Shown here: in pieces, positions 39,557 to 42,076 of the stretch
Layout of the letters: the number at the start of each line of letters is the position of its first letter
Position numbering within the stretch: position 1 is the first letter of the stretch
Origin: Actinobacteria bacterium IMCC26256
GTDB lineage: Bacteria; Actinomycetota; Acidimicrobiia; IMCC26256
Direction of reading: 5' to 3'
Assembly: GCA_001023575.1 (NCBI GenBank)
Contig: CP011489.1
Location: 372,001-436,000, forward strand
DNA: 64,000 bases
Notes under the pieces: model-generated
The model's database searches: none
What the model was told of the DNA's origin: nothing
What the model saw: the letters and a program-made list of their open reading frames with translations, nothing else
Program-made: the position numbers and the translations under genes

Positions 39557-39645
39557 AGTTTGGAAGGTTACCCTGCCGCGCTAGGTAGCCTCGGTCTCGC
39601 GCGGCCCCCAAATTGCGAGCGGGGCCTTCTTGACGGGAGCGAGCC

Positions 39646-40107
39646 ATGAGCAGACGAGACATCATCCGCATGACCGAGGCCGAGGTTGAGTCCTACCTCA
39701 CCACAGGGCGAGATCTTCAAGTTGCCTCCATTAATGCTGACGGCACCCCCCACCTTGTCACGATGTGGTTCGCGCTCGTAGATGGTGACCTCTGCTTCTG
39801 GACCTACGGACGCAGTCAGAAGATCGTGAATCTCCAGCGCGACCCGAGGGTTACGGTGCTTGTCGCCGATGGGGATGTCTACGAGAAACTTCGTGGAGTA
39901 TCCGTGGCGGGCACCGCTACCGTTATTGAGGATCGAGATGAGGTCAACGCTATTGGTGAGGCCGTCTTCGAGAAATACTGGATGCCCATTACTGATGAGG
40001 CTGTGCGCGAGGGCGTGCATTCGATGGGCGCCAAGCGCTTAGGGGTGCGGATAACTCTCGACAAGGTCGTCTCCTGGGACCACTCCAAACTCGAAGGCGC
40101 CTACTAA
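39646..40107 (+). CDS. PPOX-fold protein, possibly F420-dependent
   Basis: 153 residues. Pyridoxamine-5'-phosphate-oxidase-like split barrel: VESYLTTGRDLQVASINADGTPHLVTMWFALVDGDLCFWTYGRSQKIVNLQRDPRVTVLVADG. In Actinobacteria this short form usually binds F420 or FMN and reduces small molecules. The conserved KR/Lys-rich cofactor loop is present (RSQKIVNL). ATG start. The 3' end is followed by three copies of CCCCACCG and then the first large palindrome. Confidence 0.83.
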   Translation: MSRRDIIRMTEAEVESYLTTGRDLQVASINADGTPHLVTMWFALVDGDLCFWTYGRSQKIVNLQRDPRVTVLVADGDVYEKLRGVSVAGTATVIEDRDEVNAIGEAVFEKYWMPITDEAVREGVHSMGAKRLGVRITLDKVVSWDHSKLEGAY

Positions 40108-40115
40108 CTAAATAC

Positions 40116-40139
40116 CCCCACCGCCCCACCGCCCCACCG
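40116..40139. repeat. 8-bp tandem repeat, three perfect copies
   Basis: CCCCACCG occurs three times in a row after the stop of the PPOX-fold gene and abuts the left palindrome, sharing its first base. It may mark a duplication or slippage event at the boundary of the palindrome-bracketed unit. Confidence 0.7.
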
Positions 40140-40188
40140 AACTTCGGGTGATTAGTGTCGCCATAGCGACACTAATCACCCGAAGTTC
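40139..40188. repeat. Palindrome, left copy (23-bp arms, 4-base loop)
   Basis: The arms GAACTTCGGGTGATTAGTGTCGC and its exact complement enclose a CATA loop. The same sequence with a TATA centre recurs at 41171-41220, in the same orientation, 1032 bases downstream; both copies are preceded by CCACC. A 54-base segment (40134-40187 versus 41166-41219) differs at one base only. It could form a very stable RNA or DNA hairpin; function not known. Confidence 0.9.
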
Positions 40189-40233
40189 AATCGATTTGGG
40201 CAAGTTGTCACAGTCTGACCGTACGGTCCACAC

Positions 40234-41187
40234 ATGGTTGACAGCATGGAAGCAGTCGCCCGGCGCCAGCATGGACTCATTGCTAGGAGTCAGGCAATCA
40301 ACTCGGGTTTAACCCCCTCAGCAATTAGACACCTAGTCACCTCTCATCGTTGGTGCCCAGCCGCTCATGGTGTGTATCGAATTGAGGGCGCTCCACTCAC
40401 ACCGCGTGCTGAGATGCTGGCGCTCCTGATGTCGATTGATGCCGAGGTATTCGCGTGTCGCTCGAGTGCAGCCGCTCTGCATGGCCTACCCGGCTTTACC
40501 GTTAAACCATTTCACGCCCTCGTAGCGGGAGACCTCCATCTGCGAAATACTCGAATAAGGATTCATCGCTCGAGTCGCTTTACTCCAGCGAACTATGTGG
40601 TGATCGACTCAATTCCAACTACCGATATTGCTCGCACACTCTTCGACTTAGCCGGATGCTTGCCTCTCGGAAGGGCCGAGCGTTGCGTAGATGCCGCGCT
40701 GGCGCGCGAACTGGTCAAGGCCGATGAACTCCGAGGCGTATTCGAACGCCTGGCTCGGCGCGGACGTCTCGGGTCGGCATCAATGCGGATACTGCTCGAG
40801 GACAGGGGAGTGATTGGCTATGTCGCACCTGAGAGCGAATTAGAGCGGCGCTTTATTAAACTCCTAAAGCAACTCGATTTTCCAACACCAGAACTCCAGG
40901 TATCGATCGGCGGGGCGCTCAATCTCATCGGGCGCGTCGACGTATTTTTTCGCGAAGCACGCCTTGTGGTTGAACTTGATGGTATTGAGTTTCATGGAGA
41001 GTTAGCAGACCGACGCGATGACGCAAAACGGGATACAGCTTTAATCGCTGCCGGTTTTCGAGTTGTGCGCTTTACCTGGAACGATGTTGTCGGGCACCCC
41101 AGATACGTGGCAGACCGTCTGAAGGGGCTGCTCGAACCACCCAAACCACCCACATCTCACGTAAACCACCGAACTTCGGGTGATTAG
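40234..41187 (+). CDS. DUF559 (Vsr-like) nuclease-fold protein with AbiEi-like N-terminus
   Basis: 317 residues. The N-terminal part (about 1-100; HGLIARSQAINSGLTPSAIRHLV, then HGVYRIEGAP) resembles the winged-helix antitoxin domain seen in AbiEi-type proteins. The C-terminal part (about 197-297) is DUF559, a PD-(D/E)XK-like endonuclease domain: PESELERRF, GRVDVFF (Asp236), VVELDG (Glu247, Asp249), FHGELADRRDDAKRD and VRFTW. No partner toxin gene adjoins it. It is bracketed by two near-identical palindromes, and its stop codon TAG and last codons lie within the right palindrome. It may be a mobile or defence-type gene; activity is unproven. Confidence 0.82.
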   Translation: MVDSMEAVARRQHGLIARSQAINSGLTPSAIRHLVTSHRWCPAAHGVYRIEGAPLTPRAEMLALLMSIDAEVFACRSSAAALHGLPGFTVKPFHALVAGDLHLRNTRIRIHRSSRFTPANYVVIDSIPTTDIARTLFDLAGCLPLGRAERCVDAALARELVKADELRGVFERLARRGRLGSASMRILLEDRGVIGYVAPESELERRFIKLLKQLDFPTPELQVSIGGALNLIGRVDVFFREARLVVELDGIEFHGELADRRDDAKRDTALIAAGFRVVRFTWNDVVGHPRYVADRLKGLLEPPKPPTSHVNHRTSGD

Positions 41188-41220
41188 TGTCGCTATAGCG
41201 ACACTAATCACCCGAAGTTG
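41171..41220. repeat. Palindrome, right copy
   Basis: Perfect 48-base palindrome (41172-41219) with a TATA centre; the outermost base pair found in the left copy is lost here. It contains the stop codon of the DUF559 gene and lies between that gene and the convergent metallo-hydrolase, so it can also serve as a bidirectional transcription barrier. Confidence 0.9.
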
Positions 41221-41227
41221 GAGGAGA

Positions 41228-42076
41228 TTAGAAGCCTAGGGCTCGCAGCATTGATGGCGGGATTGATCCAGGGCTCTCACCTGTAGCGAGCATCTTTGCT
41301 CTCTCCACATTGATCGCATCGCGCTCGGCGCGCTCAAGCCAAGAATCCCACGGACCTGCTCCTATCGCCGCAGGGTCGCCGTCTGCTGCGACGCATGCGC
41401 GTAGGTAGTTCTGCAGAGCGCGCACATCATCGGCGCCGCCTATTGGTCCGTGCCCTGGAACGATTGTCTCTGCCATTTCAACTGCAATCTCTAAGACCTC
41501 AGCCCACGTCGCTACATCTCCTTGAAACGCAAGAGGGGTAACGCCGAAGAAACATATGTCTCCTGCGAAGAGCACATCCGCGTCCTCAACAAGAACCATC
41601 ACGTCTCCAGCGGTGTGCCCCGCGGCTGGAATCACTTCGATGCGCGGAGTAACCATCGCTGGTTCATCTATTACATGGCTTACTGGTCGAGTTCCGATCG
41701 CCTCGAGCTCGTCGAAGCCACGCGTGAAGGCCGGCATAAATGCTTTGTAAGCCGAGATCGGCATTTCTTGATCAAGTAGATCACTCGTTACGGATGAAGC
41801 TAAGACCATCGCATTGCGAAACGCACTCGTTCCGCCAACATGATCAATATGCGCATGAGTCAGGACGACTCTGCGAACGGGTAGGCCTAGAGCGTTTACT
41901 GCTGCGGCAAACGGCTGCCACTGCTCGGGAACCATCAGGGTGTCGATCACTGTTAGGCCGTCGTCATCAAGCACAACGCCTGCATTACTCACACCAGACT
42001 CGCCCCCGGGCTGGAGCCAGACCATTACTCCGTCTGCGATTTCATGCAGGGTGAGGGTTGGGGAGTCGCTAGCCAC
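41228..42076 (-). CDS. Metallo-beta-lactamase-fold hydrolase
   Basis: 282 residues. HxHxDH motif appears as THAHIDHVGG, with later ligands in AGHTAGDVMV, LFAGDICFF and VPGHGP, all typical of dinuclear zinc MBL hydrolases. GTG start. Substrate is unknown; hydrolysis of a thioester, lactone or phosphoester is possible. Divergent from the CoA ester lyase at 42158. Confidence 0.88.
   Translation of the reverse strand: MASDSPTLTLHEIADGVMVWLQPGGESGVSNAGVVLDDDGLTVIDTLMVPEQWQPFAAAVNALGLPVRRVVLTHAHIDHVGGTSAFRNAMVLASSVTSDLLDQEMPISAYKAFMPAFTRGFDELEAIGTRPVSHVIDEPAMVTPRIEVIPAAGHTAGDVMVLVEDADVLFAGDICFFGVTPLAFQGDVATWAEVLEIAVEMAETIVPGHGPIGGADDVRALQNYLRACVAADGDPAAIGAGPWDSWLERAERDAINVERAKMLATGESPGSIPPSMLRALGF

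Follow-up and report, generated by a model that had tools for sequence, protein, structure and literature searches.

In a REPtron, a gene has copies of its own REP family on both sides, and the family is dispersed between genes, near 3' ends (PMC6006769, PMC3733652). The locus described here, in a 64,000-nt stretch of DNA (the window), shares with such REP-RAYT systems (REPtrons; TnpA-REP) a lone enzyme gene with palindromic repeats on either side (PMC6006769, PMC3733652, PMC2817692), the dispersal of these repeats near gene 3' ends, the pairing of one repeat type with each enzyme, and copies that are at times paired or in tandem. It differs in its enzyme, a Vsr-like DUF559 nuclease whose N-terminus is of AbiEi type, rather than a Y1 HUH transposase, and in its repeats, which are two-part hairpins of ~50 nt without a GTAG foot. 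A Y1_Tnp search that was positive in control genomes found no such transposase in the window's genome (G000; complete, 2.46 Mb, probably of the class Acidimicrobiia) or in the genome G117, and the preliminary description of the window had likewise seen no transposase. Hence, the unit is REP-RAYT-like in anatomy, yet it is no member of REP-RAYT. Among 16 genomes checked, 14 lacked RAYT-type transposases.

E. coli Vsr and Caulobacter VsrA (DUF559) belong to the same nuclease superfamily as the present protein (PMC12907096). They differ from it in being mismatch-repair-type enzymes linked to cytosine methylation. We know of no repeats that bracket their genes. The EDxHD/Vsr-like homing endonucleases (3r3p) have a profile-related nuclease domain and are likewise present or absent at a given site, whereas the enzyme studied here is free-standing, carries an AbiEi-type N-terminus and lies between two complete repeats, with no intron or intein. 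In AbiE type IV toxin-antitoxin systems, AbiEi binds inverted repeats, and AbiEi models match the N-terminal ~170 residues of the present protein, which is, however, fused to a nuclease and has no AbiEii toxin gene next to it. Among the open PMC papers searched, nothing was found that joins DUF559 to bracketing palindromes or repeats. The arrangement looks like an undescribed counterpart of REP/RAYT built on an unrelated enzyme, and we read the unit as a REPtron-like selfish arrangement in which a nuclease gene lies between its own ~50-nt hairpins and further copies are dispersed (probability about 0.6).

In the window, two 54-base blocks (40134-40187 and 41166-41219) that differ by one base enclose an intact AbiEi-DUF559 gene, as had been described. 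The two blocks are the sole copies in the 64,000 nt, for which 0.01 would be expected by chance. Folded as single-stranded DNA, the left block reaches -29.0 kcal/mol (z -13.7) and the right block -26.8 kcal/mol (z -12.4). Both had been taken for perfect palindromes; this is true of the right copy, whereas the left copy has a mispair at its centre. The TGA stop codon of the nuclease gene (41185-41187) does lie within the right copy, and the threefold repeat noted at the start of the left copy consists of three CCCCACCG units (40116-40139). The features of the locus are:

39646 to 40107, + strand: left neighbour, a PNPOx-family gene, retained at the empty site
40108 to 41211, no strand: unit missing at the orthologous site of G003 and G001, with junctions movable by a few bases either way
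40116 to 40139, no strand: threefold tandem CCCCACCG repeat at the left junction, missing at the empty sites
40139 to 40188, no strand: left bracketing hairpin repeat, 50 nt, with one central mispair
40234 to 41187, + strand: nuclease gene, 317 aa, with an AbiEi-type N-terminus (DNA-binding) and a C-terminal DUF559/Vsr-like domain; D236, E247 and H254 intact
41171 to 41219, no strand: right bracketing hairpin repeat, containing the 3' end of the nuclease gene (final codons plus stop)
41228 to 42076, - strand: right neighbour, a metallo-beta-lactamase-fold gene, retained at the empty site with 97-99% aa identity in G001 and G003

An Rfam search of the repeats gave only sub-threshold matches to microRNA hairpin families, which is due to the long stems of the repeats.

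The product of the nuclease gene matches Pfam DUF559 (E=4.6e-9) and AbiEi_4 (E=8.5e-6) as well as the PADLOC AbiEi model (E=1.4e-25, residues 5-178). A profile built from 26 relatives matches the solved chains 3hrl (8.7e-11), 3r3p (2.8e-7) and Vsr (1e-4). Chain 3r3p was deposited as a mobile intron protein, and we take it to be I-Bth0305I / EDxHD. Residues D236, E247 and H254 are invariant across the alignment of 26 members and thus, judged from the alignment, the Vsr-type active site of the window protein looks intact. The single-sequence AlphaFold model (mean pLDDT 34.8) was of no use. An NCBIfam search gave no name for the protein, a phage search gave no match, and protein look-ups among genome contigs and viral contigs gave no close relatives. 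The neighbouring genes are PNPOx-like and of metallo-beta-lactamase fold, and no AbiEii nucleotidyltransferase toxin adjoins the gene, which bears out the earlier remark that a partner toxin is missing. Two further DUF559 domains of a different type are encoded elsewhere in the genome (G000:C1:1839561-1839767 and 1814221-1814409), one of them in a 1246-aa frame.

AbiEi-DUF559 genes (E<=1e-12) occur in 87 of 396 sampled Actinomycetota genomes, often several per genome, and are annotated under names like 'type IV toxin-antitoxin AbiEi' and 'DUF559 protein'. For 77 Actinomycetota relatives from 41 genomes (mostly 27-38% identity; up to 19 kb of surrounding DNA per gene), each left flank was aligned to the right flank of the same gene, and a score of at least 16 was counted as bracketing. 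Matching repeats bracket 41 of the 77 DUF559 genes (53%) versus 5 of 512 mechanically called control ORFs of the same regions that lie more than 1.5 kb away (p about 4e-36); the threshold is reached by 9/694 of all control genes and by 0/77 with shuffled flanks. Batches that were fetched separately agree (20/39 and 21/38 bracketed), and at least one bracketed gene is present in 29 of the 41 genomes, while 36 of the 77 relatives have no detectable bracket. The repeats have a median length of 52 nt, and most are hairpins with mismatches or internal loops. Their pairs are direct in 15 cases and inverted in 19, and several loci (L171, L172, L188, L221) have at least two copies per side. GAAC/GTTC is found near the repeat ends in 17 of 34 cases, compared with a background of 18%. 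Furthermore, long palindromes (arm score 16) lie beside 9 of 80 DUF559 genes and beside 11 of 673 controls.

Presence or absence of the unit in relatives, which the preliminary description had named as a check, was found. In two sister genomes, G003 (96% DNA identity here) and G001 (89%), both neighbour genes abut and the whole ~1.1 kb unit is missing. All that is left of the repeat at the empty sites is its right end, (C)CCGAAGTT, which is extended to CCCGAAGTTCGGGG in G001 (G001 ...AAATACCCGAAGTTCGGGGAGATTAG; G003 ...CTTCCGAAGTTGG...). Neither site holds a whole repeat, and the comparison revealed no duplication beyond the repeat. Gain of the unit in G000 is a simpler account than two losses. 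G001 and G003 have repeats, and no AbiEi-DUF559 gene was found in these assemblies (G001-G003 are 72-79% complete). Of about a dozen solo sites compared in G000, G001 and G003, most are common to all three, and therefore any movement is either slow or already over. One solo repeat of G003 (L095) is missing from G000 (L084). Another repeat of G003 (L099) is flanked on its left like one G000 copy and on its right like a second (L081:4065-7560), and the 3.5 kb that separate the two copies in G000 are missing in G003, suggesting loss by recombination between repeats. An insertion sequence or classical transposon was considered and rejected in view of the mixture of direct and inverted pairs and the lack of a target duplication beyond the repeat.

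The main rival explanation is that the protein is a homing endonuclease which cleaves the repeat in chromosomes without the gene, whereupon break repair introduces a copy of the gene; the hairpins would then be targets and recombination ends instead of mobile units. The kinship with 3r3p, which was deposited as a mobile intron protein and is one of the nearest solved relatives, is in keeping with homing, as are the absence of the unit from two sister genomes and the retention of CCCGAAGTTCGGGG, the end of the repeat, at the G001 empty site. However, the gene sits between two complete repeats rather than within a single split site, a whole repeat is found at neither empty site, the repeat orientations are mixed (15 direct, 19 inverted), and homing does not explain the dispersal of the repeat itself. 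We regard homing as unlikely.

The REPtron-like reading draws on the copies outside the locus as well. Allowing up to 2 mismatches, the palindrome core TGTCGCTATAGCGACA is present 18 times in G000 (reversed control: 1), a genome with just one gene of the AbiEi-DUF559 type. The outer arms AACTTCGGG/CCCGAAGTT are almost unvarying over 60 halves from G000, G001 and G003, the exact 14-base core has more than one copy only in these three of the 296 genomes of the class, and a scan of 84,980 species for the two-arm pattern returned the window's genus only, plus one occurrence in Georgenia. Hence, the palindrome is a lineage-specific repeat family. When folded, a typical solo copy has outer and inner stems of 11 and 6 bp with an AT-rich 6x6 internal loop between them. 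A/B hybrids, which have a mismatched middle, make up 19 of the 25 classifiable copies; both bracketing copies are atypical for the family, being A/A and almost perfect. The feet are GAAC on the left and GTTC on the right, with no GTAG/GTGG tetranucleotide. Most solo copies in G000 start ~50 bases or less past a stop codon. A palindrome scattered independently of DUF559 genes had been named beforehand as speaking against a link with the gene; the family is indeed scattered and most copies have no adjoining DUF559 gene, but REPs around a single RAYT gene form the same pattern.

In the distant actinomycete Georgenia subflava (NZ_VUKD01000003.1, L112:865-914), a perfect 50-base palindrome follows a helicase-like gene and has the same AACTTC/GAAGTT ends and GTCGCTATAGCGAC core as the window family, with another middle. 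A public MAG titled Bifidobacterium breve (isolate TrH-25oct19-242, CAMDSG01; L108, L111, L114, L116, L118, L119) has the window repeat family, and its species label looks wrong. Exact-core palindromes in viral contigs were dismissed as unrelated chance cores that lack the paired outer arms.

The hairpin of one gene in G117 is present 29 times over many contigs of that genome and 0 times in seven other genomes. It comprises 11 bp, a 5x5 loop and 7 bp (50 nt in total, feet GTTC and GAAC), and among its copies the internal loop varies and the 11-bp outer stem hardly does. ORF positions around these copies were left out because the ORF calls are naive and the DNA is GC-rich. The G117 and window families have nearly the same shape and unrelated sequences. 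The L171 repeat of G113 has five copies, all at its own locus, and therefore dispersal is not universal. In Tsukamurella tyrosinosolvens NCTC13231 (NZ_LR134454.1), a 42-nt inverted pair surrounds the gene for WP_068740572.1 with a bracket score of 33, compared with 13 or less for the neighbour genes; the repeat has six matches in three records of this strain, and the best one per record lies under no annotated gene.

Each gene is matched to its own repeat. The four paralogues of G113 have four different repeats, and when the left flank of one paralogue was compared with the right flank of another from the same genome, only 1/136 cross-matches reached the threshold. This private pairing argues strongly against a generic terminator or a genome-wide repeat as the cause of the bracketing. 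Repeat similarity shows no trend with protein similarity; the one exception is a pair of orthologues that are 85% identical.

The hairpins might alternatively be AbiEi-type operator or terminator sites around a solitary regulator-nuclease, with the solo copies acting as ordinary 3'-end terminators. AbiEi proteins do regulate themselves via inverted repeats (PMC7319586), and the position of most G000 solo copies directly past stop codons is what terminators would show. Such a role, however, explains neither the matching left and right repeats, which change from paralogue to paralogue within a genome, nor 18-29 dispersed copies of one long sequence. Moreover, a scan of 39600-41800 found no intrinsic terminator (GC-rich hairpin followed by a T-run) at the window locus, and AbiEi genes without a nuclease domain on three plasmids have no bracket, which leaves this explanation quite improbable. 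That some other enzyme moves the repeats and DUF559 genes merely favour repeat-rich intergenic sites would fit the solo copies that remain in G001 and G003, where no gene was detected, but it is very improbable because private pairing and the bracketing of about half of the family versus 1% of neighbours are hard to obtain by hitch-hiking and a Y1 transposase, the most obvious candidate, was found in neither G000 nor G117.

The suspicion of a REP/RAYT-like unit raised by the preliminary description is upheld in its anatomical part by the scattered copies, the polymorphism of the unit and the private bracketing across the family, together with the lack of a neighbouring partner toxin gene and of a Y1 transposase; that the nuclease recognises and mobilises the palindrome, by binding, cutting and spreading the hairpins, is our inference. 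In the REPtron-like arrangement, the AbiEi-type N-terminal and middle regions would recognise the cognate hairpin as a duplex inverted repeat, a cruciform or a single-stranded hairpin. By analogy, recognition by the N-terminal part is plausible because AbiEi proteins bind their own ~23-bp inverted repeats and not those of one another (PMC7319586). The Vsr-like domain would then nick or cut the hairpin, and cutting may spread or maintain the repeats through strand transfer or through repair of the break with another repeat as template. The gene itself would persist via the repeat population and not as a freely transposing element.

More broadly, AbiEi-DUF559 proteins might be a second class of repeat-mobilising enzymes with an evolutionary origin of its own, in which a PD-(D/E)XK/Vsr-type nuclease binds and spreads a private ~50-nt hairpin and generates REP-like populations in Actinomycetota by a chemistry unlike that of HUH transposases; we put this at slightly below even odds. 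If many AbiEi-DUF559 genes are REP-like, a large family would gain a function and long hairpin repeats would have an origin where RAYT-type transposases are mostly missing; an unrelated nuclease would also have yielded the same genome architecture in a rare case of convergence. Dozens of natural private pairs make repeat-enzyme recognition testable.

Two palindromes in G082 (L151:7061-7105 and L150:19078-19120) have the outer arm CCCGAGTACATAGC in common and differ in their inner arms; a DUF559 gene follows one of them, and the other is solo. Long perfect or near-perfect palindromes at L213:2997-3036, L174:17369-17418 and L209:3814-3852 have no DUF559 gene near them and are possibly solo copies of further families.
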